Shown piece after piece: positions 53,678-64,000 of a stretch of 64,000 nt of DNA. The position numbers and the translations under genes were made by a program. The DNA comes from Pseudobdellovibrionaceae bacterium (GTDB taxonomy: Bacteria; Bdellovibrionota; Bdellovibrionia; Bdellovibrionales; UBA1609), in NCBI GenBank assembly GCA_947444305.1, contig CANEZP010000005.1, positions 1-64,000 on the forward strand. Direction: 5' to 3'. Within the stretch, counting starts at the first letter, position 1. Each line of letters starts with the position of its first letter. The notes beneath the pieces were generated by a model. That model saw only the letters and a program-made list of their open reading frames with translations, did not search any database and was not told the DNA's origin.

Positions 53678-55194
53678 TTCGAAACCTCCCAGGCTTGCCA
53701 AAATTCTTCGGTCTGGCGGGCGTCGGGAATTATTTCGATAACCTGCCGCCCGTCACGGACGGGTGAGGGTTTTTCTAAACGCCGGTAATCCAGCGACCAC
53801 ATCTTTGCCCAGTGCTCGAAGCGCAATTGGTGCGCGTTCAAGAACATCGGATTGCGAAACATGCGGTTAAAAATTTGCCCGCCACCGTTATTGATGACGA
53901 CTAAGTTAAAACTTTTAAGCGGGCGCTGACTTAAGGCCCAGGGGCCGCTCAGGTCGTAAAGTAAAGAGAGATCTCCGATCAACGCCCAGTTTGACCGGTC
54001 CTCTGCCGCCGCGCCGGCGAAGGTCGACACGAGGCCGTCGATGCCGTTGGTTCCGCGGTTCGCGAAGACATCACGGGTGGCCCCGGCGAACGCTGCGAAA
54101 TCCCACTCGCGAATCGGCAAGCTGTTGCCGAGGAACAAACGCCCGTCGCGCGGCAACTGCCGGCTTAACCATTCGACCCACGCCGGCTCGCTTAGGTCAT
54201 ACTCTTTGAACAAAACCTCGCGACGTTGCGCCAGGTCTTCGTCTTTTTGCTTCTCTACCGGATTCCAAAAATCAAATTTGAGTTGGCGCGGCAGATCTTC
54301 GAGCGCGTGAACCATCGTTACACGCGGCGAACCCCCGTAAGGGATATTCGAAAAACAATGCACCGGTAAATCGGAGTTTTCCAGATCACGCCAGTAACGA
54401 AGCGTCGGAACGGAGCCCACGCGGATTACGCCGTCGAAATTGAGATGGGCGATGGACTTCTCGCCGGCGCGTAGCTCAAACTCCCGTAGCGAAGCATGGC
54501 CCCGCAAACGCGAGGTTCCTTCGAGATAAAGGGGGCGCTTCCACCCGGCCAAAATCGGCTCTACGAACTTCGCCTCGTTTTCGGTCAAGCCACCTACGAT
54601 AACGAGTGGTCTTTTGCACTCGATGAACGGCGCAGCCGCGGACCTTGTTCGCGCACCCGCGGGTTCAAACGGAGAATCTCCCGCGCCCAAATTCCACGCG
54701 TGAAACTCGCCGCTCAACAATGGCTCGTCGAATGAAATGTTCACGTGCACCGGGCGGCGGGCCGCCAATATGGACAAGTCACCGTCCCAATCATTTTCGA
54801 TGTCAAATTGCCCGCCCACGTAGTGTGAAAAAAGGCCGGGCTGCGTGATCGTTTGCGGAGCGCCGCTGCCGCGGTAGCGCCGTGGGCGGTCGGCCGTGAT
54901 CATGAGGAGCGGCAAACGCTGAAAATCGGCTTCGATGCACGCGGGTAATAATTCGGCGGCGGCGGTGCCCGAAGTGGTGATGATGCCGACGGGCCGGCCC
55001 TCCGCCTGCATCCGCCCGAGCGCAAAGAAACCGGCGCTGCGCTCTTCAAAGAACGAGTAGGTTTTAAAAGTCGATTGTTCACTTAGAAGTTTGATGAACG
55101 GGGCATTGCGCGCGCCCGCGCACAAAATCAATTCACGAACGCCGGCGGCCCACGCGGAAGTCAGCACGTCCTGCGCCAGGCGCAAATTGCTCAC
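53674..55194 (-). CDS. menD: SEPHCHC synthase
   Basis: MenD is a thiamine-diphosphate enzyme adding a succinyl-semialdehyde unit from 2-oxoglutarate to isochorismate. The 506-aa protein has the MenD N-terminus VRELILCAGARNAPFIKLL, FEERSAGFFALG with the catalytic Glu, TTSGTAAAELLPACIEA, LMITADRP, LFLGNSLPIREWD, NRGTNGIDGLVS and the ThDP loop LIGDLSLLYDLSG ending NNGGGQIF. GTG 55194 was chosen because it overlaps the menF stop (GTGA) and gives the standard start; a GTG at 55251 would add 19 residues. Confidence 0.96.
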   Translation of the reverse strand: MSNLRLAQDVLTSAWAAGVRELILCAGARNAPFIKLLSEQSTFKTYSFFEERSAGFFALGRMQAEGRPVGIITTSGTAAAELLPACIEADFQRLPLLMITADRPRRYRGSGAPQTITQPGLFSHYVGGQFDIENDWDGDLSILAARRPVHVNISFDEPLLSGEFHAWNLGAGDSPFEPAGARTRSAAAPFIECKRPLVIVGGLTENEAKFVEPILAGWKRPLYLEGTSRLRGHASLREFELRAGEKSIAHLNFDGVIRVGSVPTLRYWRDLENSDLPVHCFSNIPYGGSPRVTMVHALEDLPRQLKFDFWNPVEKQKDEDLAQRREVLFKEYDLSEPAWVEWLSRQLPRDGRLFLGNSLPIREWDFAAFAGATRDVFANRGTNGIDGLVSTFAGAAAEDRSNWALIGDLSLLYDLSGPWALSQRPLKSFNLVVINNGGGQIFNRMFRNPMFLNAHQLRFEHWAKMWSLDYRRLEKPSPVRDGRQVIEIIPDARQTEEFWQAWEVSK

Positions 55195-56186
55195 AGCTCG
55201 ACGCCCAACGCGCGGAAGATGGAGTCGCGCTTCAGCTCTAACTCTTTCCACTCTTTAAGAACTTCGCTTTCGCGCACAATGCCGCAGCCGGCGCCCACGC
55301 GAAGCGAGGAATTTTCCCACTGTACATTTCGGATCGCGACCACGCAGAGCATTCGCTCACCGTCGGTAAAACCGAACGGTGCGCCGAACCGACGGCGGGT
55401 TGCGTGAAAGGGCTGACGCTCTAACCACTCGACCGCGGGTTTACGCGGCCAGCCCCCGAGCGCGGCGGTGGGATGAAGATGCGTGATGAGCTCTTCAAAC
55501 TTCGGCGCATTTTCTAATTTCACTTCGATCGGCGTGAAGAGGTGCTTCAGCGGCCCGTACTCACGCTCGATGGTTCGCCCGATGCTGATCGCACCCAAGG
55601 CCTTCAATTCCCGGCGGATGTGTTCGATCACCAAGCGGTGCTCGTGCATCTCTTTCGCATCGTCGATGAGCGGAGGGGTGCCGGTCTTGGCCGTCCCGGC
55701 GAGCGCCATCGTTCTTAATATCCCGCCTTCGACGGCGAACAAAATTTCGGGCGTGACGCCGGCGAGGCCCTCGTCGTCGAATTCAAATCCGTAGGCAAAT
55801 TGCCCGGGCAAATTTTTATTCGCGAACATCGTGCGCGAGAGCGGCCCGCTGAATTCAAAATCGGTCGAGACCATGGGCACGACCTTCTCGAACTCACCGC
55901 CTTTGATCTTGCCGGCAATACCTTCGAATAGGTCTTCGAAGCCGGCGGAGGAAGGCTCGGCCTTCGATATAAGCTTCGGAAGGGGTCGGCGCTCGAAAGT
56001 GACGTGTTCGCACTCCTCGCCTAACAGCCAAGGTTCGGGCGTAAGCAAAGAAAAATCGGGAGCGAAAAAACTTAATGAGTTTGGTGCAGGAGCCGTGGAA
56101 CGCTCACGGATCTTCAGCGTTTTATGGAACGTGTCGCCGTTCAGCCACGCTAGTCCACTCTGTATTTCACGTGCCTGTTTTAACAT
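55191..56186 (-). CDS. menF: Isochorismate synthase
   Basis: MenF converts chorismate to isochorismate, the entry step of menaquinone synthesis. The 331-aa chorismate-binding protein has FEKVVPMVS with the general-base Lys region, FAYGFEFDDEGLAGVTPEILF, TMALAGTAKTG, MHEHRLVIEHIRREL, HLHPTAALGGWPRKPA and VRVGAGCGIVRESEVLKEW-type ending. It is shorter than the 430-aa E. coli protein at the N-terminus. It is the first gene of the men operon; its ATG abuts CATATG shared with the divergent aroF side. Confidence 0.95.
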   Translation of the reverse strand: MLKQAREIQSGLAWLNGDTFHKTLKIRERSTAPAPNSLSFFAPDFSLLTPEPWLLGEECEHVTFERRPLPKLISKAEPSSAGFEDLFEGIAGKIKGGEFEKVVPMVSTDFEFSGPLSRTMFANKNLPGQFAYGFEFDDEGLAGVTPEILFAVEGGILRTMALAGTAKTGTPPLIDDAKEMHEHRLVIEHIRRELKALGAISIGRTIEREYGPLKHLFTPIEVKLENAPKFEELITHLHPTAALGGWPRKPAVEWLERQPFHATRRRFGAPFGFTDGERMLCVVAIRNVQWENSSLRVGAGCGIVRESEVLKEWKELELKRDSIFRALGVEL

Positions 56187-56252
56187 ATGAAAATCACTGC
56201 CACTTTTTTAATCCGTGACATGCCTGCTCTGGTTGACTTAAAACAGGGAAGA

Positions 56253-57050
56253 ATGAATCACAAGTTAAGCGGCGTCAAGGTAGGTTCGGGCACCATCGGC
56301 ACAGGCACCTTCTCGGTTTGGGCGGGGCCGTGCTCCGTTGAATCTGCCGAACAATTTGCGAAAACTGCGGCCCTCGTTAAACGCTTCGGCGGAGTGGGTT
56401 TGCGTGGTGGGTTATTCAAGCTACGTACCGACCCCACCGCGTTCCAAGGTTTGGGCCGCGAGGCCTACGACATCGCCAAAAAAGTAAAAGCCGACGTCGC
56501 CTTGCCCTTCGTTTCCGAGATCACCGATCCCCGTCAAATCAGCGATCTCCTCGACGTGGTCGATATGTTTCAAGTCGGTTCGCGCAATATGCACAACTAC
56601 GCGCTTCTCAAAGAACTCGGGCAAACTAAAAAGCCGATTTTGTTGAAGCGTGGTTTCGCCGCGACCTTCAAAGAATGGATGCTCGCCGCCGATTACATTT
56701 TTAAGGGCGGCAACGAAGCTATCGTCTTGTGCGAGCGCGGTATCCGCACGTTCGAAACAAGCACGCGCAACACTTTCGATATCAACTCAATTGCTTTAGC
56801 CAAGATTGAAACTCCGTTTCCCGTCATCGCCGATCCTTCGCACGGTACAGGCCGCGCGGATTTGGTCGTGCCCATTTCGCTCGCCGCCGCGGCCGCAGGC
56901 GCCGATGGTCTGCTGATCGAAGTGCACCCCGACCCCGCCACCGCCAAGTCCGACGGCAACCAGTCGCTGACCTTCGCGCAGTACGAAACGCTGATGACAA
57001 AACTTCCGAAGTTGCTTAATGCTTTGGACCGAAAGATGGCGGTGATCTGA
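56253..57050 (+). CDS. aroF: 3-Deoxy-7-phosphoheptulonate (DAHP) synthase
   Basis: This enzyme condenses PEP with erythrose 4-phosphate, the first step of the shikimate pathway. The protein is the compact KDO8PS-like type without a regulatory ACT domain: WAGPCSVES, RGGLFKLRTDPTAFQG, QVGSRNMHNYALLKELG, PILLKRGFAAT, CERGIRTFE, VIADPSHGTGR and IEVHPDP. I chose ATG 56253, with AGGGA upstream; ATG 56187 would add 22 residues and leave no gap to menF. The stop overlaps ubiE (TGATG). Confidence 0.95.
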   Translation: MNHKLSGVKVGSGTIGTGTFSVWAGPCSVESAEQFAKTAALVKRFGGVGLRGGLFKLRTDPTAFQGLGREAYDIAKKVKADVALPFVSEITDPRQISDLLDVVDMFQVGSRNMHNYALLKELGQTKKPILLKRGFAATFKEWMLAADYIFKGGNEAIVLCERGIRTFETSTRNTFDINSIALAKIETPFPVIADPSHGTGRADLVVPISLAAAAAGADGLLIEVHPDPATAKSDGNQSLTFAQYETLMTKLPKLLNALDRKMAVI

Positions 57051-57778
57051 TGCAACACGAAGGACCCAAGGCCGAAGAAATCAAAAATCTGTTCGCGGCG
57101 GTGGCCACCGGCTACGACAAAGCCAACGACGCAATGACCTTGGGGCTTGCCCACTTGTGGCGGCGTAAACTTGTTGCGTGGAGTGGCGCAAAAGCCGGCG
57201 ATCAAGTCTTAGACTGCGCGACCGGCACCGGCGATCTCGCACTTGAATTCAAACGCAGCGTGGGCACCACGGGTAAAGTCTTAGGCACCGACTTTTGCGC
57301 CGAGATGCTCGAGCTCGCACCGCCCAAGGCTAAAAAGGCCGGCCTCGACATCGATTTCCAAATCGCCGACGCCATGAATTTACAATTCGCCGACAAACGC
57401 TTCGACATCGCTTCGATCGCCTACGGAATCCGCAACGTTGCCGATCCCGAAAAAGCATTGAGCGAGATGGCCCGGGTCGTTAAACCCGGCGGCCGCGTGA
57501 TGATCTTAGAAACCGGCGACTCGCCCGATCACGCCCTTCGCCCCTTCTTTGATTTTTACTTCCGCAAGGTGATTCCGCGCGTGGGCGGCTGGGTCACCGG
57601 CAAGCGTTTCGCGTACGAATACCTGAACAATTCGTCGCGCGGTTTCCCGAGCCGGGACCGCTTCCTCGAATTGATGAAGAACACCGGCCGCTACGAAGAT
57701 CTCGAGTTCCGCGTTTTATTCGGCGGCGCAAGCTTCATCTACCGCGGCGTCGTAAAATCGAAACCCACGATCAACTAA
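57050..57778 (+). CDS. ubiE: Demethylmenaquinone methyltransferase
   Basis: UbiE/MenG performs the last C-methylation of menaquinone. The 242-aa methyltransferase has the family pattern VATGYDKANDAMTLGLAHLWRRKL, the SAM loop VLDCATGTGDLAL, GTDFCAEML, GIRNVADPEKALSEMARVVKPGGRVMILE, the FYFRKVIPRVGG stretch and a final EFRVLFGGASFIYRGVV. It is coupled to the DAHP synthase gene (TGATG), linking the start of aromatic synthesis with the end of the quinone pathway. Confidence 0.96.
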   Translation: MQHEGPKAEEIKNLFAAVATGYDKANDAMTLGLAHLWRRKLVAWSGAKAGDQVLDCATGTGDLALEFKRSVGTTGKVLGTDFCAEMLELAPPKAKKAGLDIDFQIADAMNLQFADKRFDIASIAYGIRNVADPEKALSEMARVVKPGGRVMILETGDSPDHALRPFFDFYFRKVIPRVGGWVTGKRFAYEYLNNSSRGFPSRDRFLELMKNTGRYEDLEFRVLFGGASFIYRGVVKSKPTIN

Positions 57779-57994: not shown

Positions 57995-58522
57995 ATGAAG
58001 CAGCTCAAACTCCTGAAAGCAGAAAAGAACTTCTACGGCGGCACCTTCCGCAACAAAAGAAAGGGCCGTCAGGGCAGCCGTCCGCTCGCCACGAAGCATT
58101 CGATGCATCTAGTTTTAAGGTCTAGCCAAGCGACGGGCGCAAAATCTTTTCTTAAGCACCGCAAAAAGGTGCGCGGGATCATCGATCGCTTCGCGAAAAA
58201 ATACGCGGTGAAGATTCACACGCTCGCGAATGTCGGGAATCATCTGCACCTGCATCTCCAGCTCGCAAACCGGTTCACGTATGAAGCTTTTATCCGCGCG
58301 GTGACGGGTTCGATCGCGTTGGCAATGACGGGCGCGAGTAAGCTTAAAAAGAACAAAGGAAGATTTTGGGACTACCGTCCGTTCACGCGCGTGGTGATCG
58401 GATTTCGGGCTTTTTTAGGAGTGCGGGATTATGTCTTAGTCAACCAACTCGAAAGCCAGGGGTTCGAGCGCGATGATGCGGAAATCGTCATCCGGGAGTT
58501 CGGGCCGCGGAGCTCGGCCTAG
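57995..58522 (+). CDS. REP-associated tyrosine transposase (RAYT, HUH/Y1 family)
   Basis: The 175-aa protein has the IS200-like Y1 fold signatures: KHSMHLVLRSS, the HUH metal motif in ANVGNHLHLHLQL, FIRAVTGSIALAMTGASK, FWDYRPFTRVV and a C-terminal RDYVLVNQLESQGF with the candidate nucleophile Tyr. RAYTs are single-copy, domesticated relatives of transposases that handle REP palindromes. This sub-family, starting QLKLLKAEKNFYGG, resembles proteins I recall from Bdellovibrio. The flanking palindrome at 57871 supports the call. It sits between the menaquinone and chorismate genes. Confidence 0.85.
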   Translation: MKQLKLLKAEKNFYGGTFRNKRKGRQGSRPLATKHSMHLVLRSSQATGAKSFLKHRKKVRGIIDRFAKKYAVKIHTLANVGNHLHLHLQLANRFTYEAFIRAVTGSIALAMTGASKLKKNKGRFWDYRPFTRVVIGFRAFLGVRDYVLVNQLESQGFERDDAEIVIREFGPRSSA

Positions 58523-60232: not shown

Positions 60233-61267
60233 TCATACCCGGTCGAGCCTTGCCAGAAGTATTTGATCCGCGAGCACTAACCACGTCATCGCCTCAAGAA
60301 CGGGCACCGCTCTCGGAACAATGCACGGATCGTGTCTCCCTTTCTTTGCAACTTCTAAACGGGAAGAGGTTGGTTTGAAAGCGACGCGCATCGTGATCGG
60401 TTCACCACTCGAGATTCCGCCCCGGATTCCGCCGTAGTCTTGGTCGACGTCATGAAATTCTTTCCCCGATTTTTCGGCCGCGGCGAAACCTTGTCCCACT
60501 TCAACACCGCAAGTGGCGCCGATGCTTAAGAAAGCTGAACTTAACTCTGATTTTAATTTGTGGAATACAGGTTGACCTAAGCCCTTAGGTAAACCAATCA
60601 GCCTCATATAGGCCTTGCCACCGTAGCTCTCGCCGGTTTCGCGAGCGCGCGACAGCATCAATTCCATATCTTCATTTTTTTCTTCGGACGGGCAGCGGAG
60701 CGAAAATTCATCGGCGTGCCACGGGTCTGTTTCTAAAGCTTCGGCCGCGTCGAGCGCTTCGGCGTCGGTCATGCCGATCACCCCGATGTTCTGCACGAAC
60801 GCAATTACGCTGGCTTCCGGGTAAAGCTGTTGCACGAACATGCGCGCGACCGCGCCGCCGATTACGCGGCTGACCGTTTCTCGTCCGGACGCCCGGCCGC
60901 TGCCCCTCGGATCCGAATGTCCGTACTTATCGGCCCAAAGGTCGGTGGCGTGCCCCTGACGCTTCTCTAAAGTTTTTTTGTCGTAGTCTTGCGAGCGGGC
61001 ATCTTCGTTGAAAATCACGGCGCCGATGGGCGTGCCTAATGTCTTGCCCTCGTAAACGCCGGACAAGATTTGTACGAGATCCTTTTCGGCCCGCGCGGAG
61101 ACGTTCGGACCGCTCCCCGGCCGGCGGCGTTCGAGCGAACGATTGAGCATATCTTGCTGCCAAACGACGCCCGCGGGGCAACCGTCGATCACCGCACCCA
61201 TCGCGGGTCCGTGGCTTTCGCCGAAAGTGTTCAAACAAAATACGCGGCCGAACTGATTGCCTCTCAA
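60233..61267 (-). CDS. aroC: Chorismate synthase
   Basis: AroC forms chorismate from EPSP using reduced FMN. The 344-aa protein has GNQFGRVFCLNTFGESHGPAMGAVIDGCPAG, RRRPGSG, GTPIGAVIFNEDARSQDY, ATDLWADKYGHSDPRGSGRASGRET and GIRGGISSGEPITMRVAFKPTSS. It starts at TTG 61267 behind AAGGGG, 10 bp after the aroKDE stop, so it is the downstream gene of the aro operon. Confidence 0.97.
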   Translation of the reverse strand: MRGNQFGRVFCLNTFGESHGPAMGAVIDGCPAGVVWQQDMLNRSLERRRPGSGPNVSARAEKDLVQILSGVYEGKTLGTPIGAVIFNEDARSQDYDKKTLEKRQGHATDLWADKYGHSDPRGSGRASGRETVSRVIGGAVARMFVQQLYPEASVIAFVQNIGVIGMTDAEALDAAEALETDPWHADEFSLRCPSEEKNEDMELMLSRARETGESYGGKAYMRLIGLPKGLGQPVFHKLKSELSSAFLSIGATCGVEVGQGFAAAEKSGKEFHDVDQDYGGIRGGISSGEPITMRVAFKPTSSRLEVAKKGRHDPCIVPRAVPVLEAMTWLVLADQILLARLDRV

Positions 61268-61277
61268 AACTTGCCCC

Positions 61278-63014
61278 TTAAGTTTTTTCGTTAAGCCAAA
61301 ATGTGCGTTGAAATCCGGCCTGTAGCTTAAACATTTTCAAGCCCGATTGATAGGGCAAGTTGCGCATCACCGCCCACTCGAGTCCCGGCGAATCGTCGGC
61401 GTAATTAAGATCTAGCACCAAACCGGCACCGGCCTCTTCGCCCGGAAAGCGGAAGTCACGCGCGCGTCCCGCAGCCCAAATCAAAACTTTAGCTTGCCCG
61501 AAATTTTCGCTCCCCGCGCGAGGCAAGCCCGTGCGTGCGGAAAATTCTTTTAAGTTGGGGAACGCCGCGCGAACGCTCGAGCGGACTCCCCCGCCGCCCC
61601 AAAGCCAAACCTCACCGGGAGTGGCCGCGAACTCGGCGGCGATTTCTTTTAGCGCAAGCACGTCGGTGTTGTGGCCTTGGATTGTTTCATGTGACACGCG
61701 AAGGGTATTTACCGCGTTCAGTTCCTGCGCTTCGGGCGTGAGCGAGCCGCAAATCTGAAACGCCGCCTTCTTTAACGGCGCGGTGACCGCCGCGTGCGTG
61801 AGCCCGAGCTTTCTTAAGAACGAAAAAGCCACGGCGAACTCATCTTCGTTCACCGGTATCGCCACGAAGGGCATGCCCCGTTCTTTAAAAAAATCTAAAT
61901 GCTCGACCGGGGAACGGCTATGGCCGACCGGTGAACCGAGCACCGCCGCGAAGTGGTGATTGAGTTCCGGTTGTAAACGCATTTGCCAATAAAGCGGCTG
62001 ATCGGCGGCACTGCCTTCGTCTTCGCGGTAAAAGTGTACCGGCATCCTTGCGCCGAACAATGAGCGATACCAACGCCAGCGCCCGTCTTTGGACCGAGGT
62101 AAAAACGCGCGCTTTTGCGGATCCCGCAACCACCAGTCGTGACCTAATTCCAGCTCCTCGAAGCTGTCGATGTTGACGGCCAACTTGTAGATCTCCGCGC
62201 GCAAGCTCCCGAACTTTTTGAAACTGTTGGCCAGCGTCCCGTCCCGCTCGTGAAGTGAAAGGATTTGCGCCGGCGCCGGCGGCGGTCCGAGCTCGAGGGC
62301 CCAGTCGCTCGGTCCTTGCGCGATTCGGCCCGGCGCCGTACGAACCGAACTCAGAATTTTTTCCGCCGGTAATAGCTCGTTCGCCCGGCTCATCTGTACG
62401 GCGGTCAAAACATCGTCGCGAAGCTCCCAACGACGCGTGCCCCACGTCTTCCGTTTTTCGATAAAAGCATCGCCGCCGCGAAAGTGCGCCGGCAATAACG
62501 TGAAATCAAAAGGCAAAAAAATCGCGTGCGATTTCAAGACGAAGTCTTCGAGCCCACCCGCGTAACCTTCGGGCAAAACGAGTTGTTCGTGAGCCCAGGC
62601 CCTGAACCGGTGCTCACGAATATGGTAGCGGTGCATGTATTCCGCGTGCGGCGTAAGCGATGGGTTCAGCCGCGGCCGTCCAAGAAACGACCGGCCCGAG
62701 CCGTCGCTTTCGCGGCGTAACCAGAGGACACGCGCCTCTTTCGGCATCGGTCCTTCGAATCCGGCGCCGAGCGCGATGATTTTGTGACTGCCCTCTTCCG
62801 CCATGAGCGCGGCGAAAGTTTTTTTCTCGGCCACCCGAAAAACGGTTTCGCCGTCCGCAAAAAGTTGCGCGATCGTTCGCCCACCGCGGCTCTCGATTTC
62901 TTTGTCCAAATCGTAGAACACCGCGCTTAGCGAATTCGCCCGCGCGTAAACTTTAAGTGATTGTAAAAACGCGGACTTGCCCGTACCGCGATGACCGATC
63001 AAAAGCGTTGTCAC
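61278..63014 (-). CDS. Trifunctional shikimate kinase / 3-dehydroquinase / shikimate dehydrogenase fusion
   Basis: The 578-aa protein appears to join three shikimate-pathway enzymes. Residues 1-160 are shikimate kinase (P-loop GHRGTGKS 7-14, DLDKEIESRGG, GETVFRVAE, GRPRL). Residues 165-345 resemble type I dehydroquinase (RRWELRDD, SSVRT, ALELG, LSLHERDG with His 255, IYKLAV with Lys 277, WRWYRSLFGA). Residues 355-578 are shikimate dehydrogenase (GSPVGHSRSP, VTAPLKK with Lys 415, LNAVNTL, GHNTD). The middle domain is the most divergent. GTG 63014 overlaps the aroA stop (GTGA). The domain order matches the end of eukaryotic AROM. Confidence 0.85.
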   Translation of the reverse strand: MTTLLIGHRGTGKSAFLQSLKVYARANSLSAVFYDLDKEIESRGGRTIAQLFADGETVFRVAEKKTFAALMAEEGSHKIIALGAGFEGPMPKEARVLWLRRESDGSGRSFLGRPRLNPSLTPHAEYMHRYHIREHRFRAWAHEQLVLPEGYAGGLEDFVLKSHAIFLPFDFTLLPAHFRGGDAFIEKRKTWGTRRWELRDDVLTAVQMSRANELLPAEKILSSVRTAPGRIAQGPSDWALELGPPPAPAQILSLHERDGTLANSFKKFGSLRAEIYKLAVNIDSFEELELGHDWWLRDPQKRAFLPRSKDGRWRWYRSLFGARMPVHFYREDEGSAADQPLYWQMRLQPELNHHFAAVLGSPVGHSRSPVEHLDFFKERGMPFVAIPVNEDEFAVAFSFLRKLGLTHAAVTAPLKKAAFQICGSLTPEAQELNAVNTLRVSHETIQGHNTDVLALKEIAAEFAATPGEVWLWGGGGVRSSVRAAFPNLKEFSARTGLPRAGSENFGQAKVLIWAAGRARDFRFPGEEAGAGLVLDLNYADDSPGLEWAVMRNLPYQSGLKMFKLQAGFQRTFWLNEKT

Positions 63015-64000
63015 GCATCCCAACCCATAATCTTCCAAAACTCAGGCAGGCTTTTGCTAACGACTTCCGGATGCAGAATATGAACCGGCAGTCCCGCCGC
63101 TTTAAAGATCGCCCCCGCGAAAGCGAGACGGTGATCTTGATCGGAATCGAAGTCGAGAGACTGCGTAACCACGACCGGGTCGTCACCGAGAATTTCTAGG
63201 CCGTCGGGCTTACGTAAAACTTTGCGCCCAAGTTTCTCGATGATCACGGCCATCGCTTCGAGCCGGTCCGACTCCTTGTGCACCAATTGCGGGGCACCGT
63301 GGAGATCACTCGGGCCAACGGCCAGCGCGCACAAAGCGGCCAGCACGGGAAAAAGGTCGGGCATCGATTTCAGATTTACGCGCACGCCGTTCAAGCGCGC
63401 GGCTTTCTCTACTTTAAGCCCGTGCGGTCCCCGGCTCAGGGGAACGCCCATGCCCGCCAAAATTTGCACGAACTGTGCGTCGGGCTGCAAACTCGCTTCC
63501 GGAAAATCGGTCAACGTGGCGCGCCCGCTGACCGCGGCCGCGGCGGCAACCGCAAACGCCGAACTCATGTCGGTTTCGATCACGACTTCGGCGGCGCTCA
63601 CTTTTTGCCCGCGAGGGATGCGAAAGTCGGCGTCCCAAAAGTCCATCTTCATGCCGAGCTGAATCGCCATGCGTTCGCTCATCTTCCAGTAGCCTTCCGA
63701 AACTTTACGGCCGCCGGGCGAGACGAATAGATCAAAGGGTAAATCCCAAGCGTTGAGCAAGACACTTGTCGCAAACTGACTGCTGCGCTCGGAAGGCACG
63801 AGCAAAGTATCGCCATGCATCTTCCAGCCTTGGCTTTCGAGTTCTAAGTAGTCGGCCCCGAGCGTCGCTTGCACGCCGAGTTGTTTCAGAATTTTCAGCA
63901 GTTCTTCTTGCGGCCGTTCGAACAATCTTTTTTCGCCGGTGAGCCGGTGCTTGCCCGATTCGCGCGAGGCCCGCAACGCCATGAAACGTAGAACCGTCCC
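63011..64000 (-). CDS. aroA: EPSP synthase (3-phosphoshikimate 1-carboxyvinyltransferase), 5' end cut off
   Basis: AroA transfers enolpyruvyl from PEP to shikimate 3-phosphate. The C-terminal 329 or so residues are in the window, and the frame stays open to the edge. They begin with GTVLRFMALRASRESG (the G-T-x-x-R-F region), then RLFERPQEELLKILKQLGV, a middle VETD-like VIETDMSSAFAVAAAAAVSG, FPEASLQPDAQFVQILAGMG and the C-terminal HKESDRLEAMA, DQDHRLAFAGAIFKAAG. The Met at 63982 is internal, not the start. The stop overlaps aroKDE. Confidence 0.95.
   Translation of the reverse strand, partial: GTVLRFMALRASRESGKHRLTGEKRLFERPQEELLKILKQLGVQATLGADYLELESQGWKMHGDTLLVPSERSSQFATSVLLNAWDLPFDLFVSPGGRKVSEGYWKMSERMAIQLGMKMDFWDADFRIPRGQKVSAAEVVIETDMSSAFAVAAAAAVSGRATLTDFPEASLQPDAQFVQILAGMGVPLSRGPHGLKVEKAARLNGVRVNLKSMPDLFPVLAALCALAVGPSDLHGAPQLVHKESDRLEAMAVIIEKLGRKVLRKPDGLEILGDDPVVVTQSLDFDSDQDHRLAFAGAIFKAAGLPVHILHPEVVSKSLPEFWKIMGWDA

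Follow-up and report, generated by a model that had tools for sequence, protein, structure and literature searches.

The closest described counterpart of the arrangement reported here is AROM (Aro1), the polypeptide of fungi and protists (6hqv, 7u5s, 7tbv) that carries shikimate kinase (SK), type I dehydroquinase (DHQase) and shikimate dehydrogenase (SDH) in one chain, directly preceded by AroB and AroA. The group that solved its structure termed the existence of AROM a long-standing enigma, and its survey found only bifunctional shikimate fusions in prokaryotes (PMC10792529).

Several two-enzyme fusions share a part of this layout. The plant and chlamydial AroDE (2gpt, NF006802) joins a type I dehydroquinase to a following SDH, but it has no kinase domain and its dehydroquinase is of ordinary length. 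The clostridial DHQD-SK (CASP15 T1180; PMC10792529), which is prokaryotic, joins a type I dehydroquinase to a shikimate kinase, but it has two domains in the reverse order (DHQD first) and no SDH. The AroK-AroB fusion (NF010556, Thermotoga type) is also a bacterial shikimate-pathway fusion with a kinase, but with another partner and in another order.

The protein described here, AroKDE, combines kinase, dehydroquinase and dehydrogenase domains. NF006802 covers only part of its SDH (47.7 bits; cut-off 598), and NF010556 matches only the N-part of its kinase (21 bits). A search of the openly accessible papers for trifunctional or Bdellovibrio shikimate fusions found none. As far as those papers go, AroKDE is a conserved bacterial near-AROM without an earlier description. 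The original prediction had allowed that such a fusion might be a well-known family shared by all related genomes; it is indeed widespread among them, but no paper describing it was found.

Organization of the chorismate gene run

In the window (the whole stretch of 64,000 nucleotides that was analysed) and in the adjoining part of its contig, C5, we located the following features:

61278–63014, minus strand: aroKDE (shikimate kinase – type I 3-dehydroquinate dehydratase – shikimate dehydrogenase), single open reading frame of 578 aa, GTG start at 63014
62550–63014, minus strand: domain K, shikimate kinase, residues ~1–155; Pfam SKI 40.7 bits, above cut-off
61965–62549, minus strand: domain D, divergent minimal type I dehydroquinase, residues ~156–350; assigned from its profile matches, its fold and an invariant active site
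61278–61964, minus strand: domain E, shikimate dehydrogenase, residues ~351–578; Pfam Shikimate_dh_N 59.2 bits, above cut-off
63011–63014, minus strand: GTGA overlap of the aroA stop (TGA, 63013–63011) and the aroKDE start (GTG, 63014–63012), read from the sequence
63011–64000, minus strand: window part of aroA (EPSP synthase); whole gene C5:63011–64198, 395 aa
C5:64183–65286, minus strand: aroB (DHQ_synthase), 367 aa, overlapping the 5′ end of aroA; just outside the window
60233–61267, minus strand: aroC (chorismate synthase), 344 aa, TTG start, Pfam 329.8 bits
56187–57050, plus strand: DAHP synthase, one of the remaining pathway genes, which the genome also has

The 578-aa frame, its coordinates, the GTG start and the 4-nt overlap with aroA had all been claimed from the letters, and a sequence check bore them out. 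The window edge falls inside aroA, and contig C5 (279 kb) continues past it. Whether aroB lies upstream of aroA had been asked, and the contig beyond the window answers that it does. The locus had been said to match the last four AROM steps; with aroB in place it matches all five, which goes beyond the claim. With aroC, the final gene of the run, 10 nt downstream of aroKDE, the operon order aroB-aroA-aroKDE-aroC is the AROM order B-A-K-D-E plus the last pathway step. This order is present as gene order plus fusion: the chain described here holds three of the five activities, and those of relatives hold at most four.

Judged from the sequence, the GTGA overlap probably couples translation of aroA and aroKDE. 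Together with the fusion, such coupling would yield the enzymes in equal amounts.

A second aromatic/quinone gene group, in which a chorismate-binding enzyme (minus strand), the DAHP synthase (plus strand) and a UbiE/MenG-type methyltransferase (plus strand) adjoin, was observed at 55191–57778, some 3 kb away from aroC. Between the two aromatic gene groups lies a gene for a Y1/IS200-like transposase of the REP-associated type (57995–58522, plus strand).

Identity of the three domains

The motifs of the two outer domains had been described as clear, and both domains score above their Pfam cut-offs. Domain K carries all of the shikimate kinase motifs (P-loop, DxD, R58, GG, lid Arg and R136), namely the GHRGTGKS P-loop, D35/D37, R60, G83/G85, the lid residue R113, and R133. 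D35, D37, R60, G83, G85 and R133 are invariant in 42 sequences, and R113 is present in 44 of 45. In domain E, K415 and D451 correspond to the catalytic Lys65 and Asp102 of AroE, and N436 and Q565 to its Asn86 and Gln244; these four and S366 are invariant among the aligned relatives. The fold of this domain matches AroE structures with a Z of 23 (VIA).

Profile, fold and an invariant active site identify the middle domain as a type I dehydroquinase, though a very divergent one. In the window protein it had no Pfam match, falling below the cut-off of PF01487 as well, which is a criterion of detection and not a catalytic feature; PF01487 was matched weakly by 7 of 43 relatives (best E 0.0015). 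Sequences of the domain in our alignment are 28–52% identical to that of the window. When a 43-row family profile was compared with all PDB sequences, the top three matches were 3-dehydroquinate dehydratases (2ocz, E=1.1e-5). Comparison of the domain D family with E. coli AroD and four other AroD sequences in hhalign aligned the full domain length (E=2.9e-6). The region, for which a profile search had been proposed, is thus not unrelated to dehydroquinase.

The AlphaFold model of domain D (pLDDT 92) is an eight-stranded barrel. In VIA, its top 39 rows were all type I DHQases, including AROM and plant DHQase entries (Z 12.3–14.4; ~180 residues aligned, rmsd ~3.2 Å), and the next fold was pyruvate kinase (Z 10.6). 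Foldseek with domain D alone gave no match with E <0.001; its top match was an archaeal DHQase with a probability of 0.98.

Ten residues of domain D are invariant in all 45 sequences. E197, R199, D201, R225 and D237 occupy the positions of Glu46, Arg48, Asp50, Arg82 and Asp114 in E. coli AroD, and S253, H255, K277, R317 and Q339 those of Ser141, His143, Lys170, Arg213 and Gln236. The Schiff-base lysine (Lys170) is K277 on β6 and the general acid/base (His143) is H255 after β5, which confirms the two positions that had been picked out by motif. E197, R199, R225, R317 and Q339 are the counterparts of the substrate-binding Glu46, Arg48, Arg82, Arg213 and Gln236; the pairing of R317 with Arg213 relies on where R317 sits in the helix that follows β7 and is shifted by 2 residues from the hhalign register. 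In the model, the catalytic residues are found on the strands that carry their AroD counterparts. We assign domain D to the type I DHQases on the grounds of its fold, its Lys/His dyad and the profile.

One position differs. Glu86 of AroD is the partner of His143, a helper residue that is dispensable. It is replaced by G229 in the window protein, and 15 of 45 relatives have E there. Turnover by domain D may therefore be slower, or another residue may substitute, and the loss lowers the certainty of full dehydroquinase activity as read from the sequence.

No other dehydroquinase, type I or type II, and no second SDH/aroE was found in the genome of the window, a draft of 29 contigs that is ~97% complete. 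A second SKI match (C2:159913–160029) lacks the DxD motif and was rejected as a generic P-loop kinase. The search for an intact separate set of aroD/aroQ, aroE and aroK, which would have spoken against the original prediction, thus found no second dehydroquinase or aroE and no convincing aroK. An undetected dehydroquinase is possible in this one genome, but hardly in all 130 relatives that carry the domain. Among 197 related genomes, the D-domain profile was found in 130, DHQase II in 26 and DHQase I in 4, with zero overlap (130 vs 30, hypergeometric 4e-17, kinship ignored). Within the order of the window, the three genomes of family f7 and one genus of family f8 have the type II enzyme and lack the D domain.

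Domain D might alternatively be a vestigial or structural barrel, with step 3 performed by an unrecognised enzyme or bypassed through uptake of pathway products from prey or the environment. The very low similarity, the missing Pfam match of the window protein and the lost Glu86 equivalent fit this idea, and the relatives may be predators with many predicted auxotrophies (PMC7529429; PMC10665431). The dead type I domain of Candida albicans Aro1 also means that the presence of a domain does not equal activity (PMC9074039). We nevertheless consider an inactive barrel improbable, because His255, Lys277 and the eight other active-site residues have stayed invariant over divergent sequences, the remaining pathway is present, including the DAHP synthase, and many lineages without the D domain have a type II or type I enzyme instead. 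In Candida Aro1, the presence or absence of a type II enzyme correctly predicted dead and active type I domains, and the dyad is lost exactly where type II exists (PMC9074039). Here neither is true, and the mutual exclusion among the relatives is the pattern that sorted the Candida domains.

As an active enzyme, the domain D barrel would dehydrate 3-dehydroquinate in step 3, with Lys277 forming the Schiff base and His255 acting as general acid/base. The C-terminal domain would then use NADPH to reduce 3-dehydroshikimate (step 4), and shikimate would be phosphorylated by the N-terminal domain (step 5), after which AroA would make EPSP and AroC chorismate.

Three genomes that are close to complete and belong to the same order or family (G049, G054 and G010) have neither the fusion nor a recognised dehydroquinase. 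They are possibly chorismate auxotrophs, or their enzyme may have diverged even further. A different fusion was observed in a sister family that has the type II dehydroquinase: a 535-aa ORF of genome G171 (L208:1492–3099, minus strand) appears to combine an N-terminal RibF-like part, recognised by its motifs by eye, with a shikimate dehydrogenase that is very divergent. In genome G164 (L207:582–2181, plus strand) the RibF-like protein and shikimate dehydrogenase are separate overlapping ORFs.

Distribution of the fusion and the four-enzyme variants

Homologues of aroKDE were found in ~130 related genomes, and the fusion occurs in most genomes of the window's order as well as in families f16, f17 and f27 of the phylum. 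These relatives were collected by a separate genome search; a scan of an 84,980-species collection with exact peptide patterns returned unrelated shikimate kinases only, the patterns being too specific. A D-domain search of 398 genomes of another phylum, run without a positive control, gave no match and is uninformative.

The order aroB, aroA, KDE, aroC is kept in nearly all loci inspected, and aroC adjoins in nearly all loci fetched. The exceptions are one locus with aroA relocated behind aroC (L130) and two in which no aroA was found in the run (L115 and L116).

It could be objected that an assembly or frame error joined separate aroK, aroD and aroE genes in one genome, given the draft state of the assembly (29 contigs). 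The ORF is, however, uninterrupted in ~100 independent genomes, several of them closed in a single contig, and the architecture recurs in ~130 relatives, so that neither such an error, whose probability we regard as negligible, nor chance accounts for it. ORF, Pfam, profile, fold and relatives together confirm that the predicted K-D-E three-enzyme fusion is real.

In loci L062–L068 (families f10 and f8) and L111 and L112 (f17), aroA is in frame with KDE. The resulting AroA-K-D-E ORFs are ~980–1100 aa long and contain EPSP synthase, SKI and SDH domains. An example of the in-frame AroA/KDE junction is '...KSFPEFWSLLHAGPHLIVGHRGAGKT'; it is the GTGA junction of the window that is here read in frame. 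The four-enzyme fusion occurs in three clades and requires three separate changes on the AroA tree.

A search of 369 genomes of the phylum turned up no ORF with all five domains, and AroB is separate in all loci inspected. A 1366-aa frame in genome G345 (L111) appears pentafunctional, but its first ~350 residues are an out-of-frame aroB overlap and aroA starts near residue 350. A 1073-aa frame in genome G068 (L061) was rejected as a fusion since aroA is in a different frame. One bin (G043) holds two copies of the locus (L124 and L125), one of them with the K and D-E parts in separate frames; either contamination (6%) or the decay of one copy may explain this.

Relation to eukaryotic AROM

The original prediction had left it open whether the locus is a relative of the AROM ancestor or a convergent fusion, and had proposed a phylogeny of each domain. 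The AROM letters were taken from PDB chains, fetched with a yeast ARO1 sequence that served only as query, and the trees contain fungal AROMs only and about 20 other bacteria.

In the AroA tree, the bacterial cluster is a single clade (100/99) and AROM joins E. coli AroA (100/98); a joint clade of cluster and AROM is rejected (AU p = 0.005). The AroB tree also shows the cluster as a single clade (100/99) with AROM among other bacteria, but here a joint clade is not rejected (AU p = 0.137). The cluster is again a single clade in the AroE tree, where AROM is placed with other bacteria at moderate support. For none of AroB, AroA and AroE is the nearest PDB sequence relative an AROM, and domain E scores 85.2 bits with the general aroE model TIGR00507 vs 39.5 bits with the AROM-specific SDH model TIGR01809.

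The structure prediction that had been proposed for the full protein gave a model with pLDDT 93.7 and pTM 0.93. In Foldseek, its ten best rows were all AROM chains. As a rigid body, however, the model fits AROM poorly (18.5 Å over the chain), whereas its D-E half superposes on Arabidopsis DHQ-SDH (399 residues, 3.5 Å), the predicted domain placement being that of AroDE; the program that predicted this packing had the plant structure among its training data. In plant DHQ-SDH and clostridial DHQD-SK, the partner domain takes over the dimer face of the DHQase (PMC10792529). As regards quaternary structure, the model suggests that the D-E half probably packs as in plant DHQ-SDH, via the face that free dehydroquinases use for dimerisation.

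These data bear on the possibility that an operon or fusion gene of this bacterial lineage gave rise to the eukaryotic AROM gene. Common descent would explain the identical five-part order, which has a chance probability of 1 in 120, and it accords with the stepwise series from split genes through K-D-E to A-K-D-E, with the AroB tree and with the AROM chains as best whole-chain fold matches. Against it speak the AroA tree in particular, which gives AroA a descent separate from that of AROM, and further the AroE tree, the TIGR01809 score and the D-E packing, which in the model fits the plant enzyme and not AROM. There are other differences as well: in the bacterial cluster AroB is encoded by a gene of its own in every case and AroA in most, and the dehydroquinase, with ~190 residues, is far more divergent. 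We therefore regard common descent as unlikely.

Since AROM's AroA groups with that of E. coli and the joint clade is rejected, the likeness to AROM is most likely convergent, as far as sequences allow such a judgement. Of the two readings offered originally, convergence is thus favoured and ancestor kinship is unsupported. The shared order may be due either to chance or to a favourable or old operon order.

Overall, we are confident that the locus is a chorismate operon, aroB-aroA-aroKDE-aroC, with a trifunctional AroKDE whose fusion arose in this phylum and whose resemblance to AROM is convergent. Fusion and operon would have been born inside the bacterial phylum, with aroA additionally fused in three lineages. 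More tentatively, and with rather less assurance, we suggest an independent bacterial near-AROM, in which overlapping B-A-K-D-E genes were fused junction by junction, first into a three-enzyme protein and then, three times, into a four-enzyme one.

In ~130 genomes the third-step enzyme is invisible to Pfam, and automatic annotation would therefore tend to call these bacteria chorismate-deficient. AROM is regarded as a eukaryotic peculiarity, yet a bacterial lineage has the equal gene order with graded fusion, of three and then four domains. If our reading is true, the odd domain order of AROM, which is not that of the pathway, can result when the genes of an operon that already existed in bacteria are fused, and the bacterial cluster represents living intermediates of an AROM-like fusion. 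Such graded fusions are natural intermediates for the question of why enzymes fuse (channelling, stoichiometry, stability) and how fusions grow.
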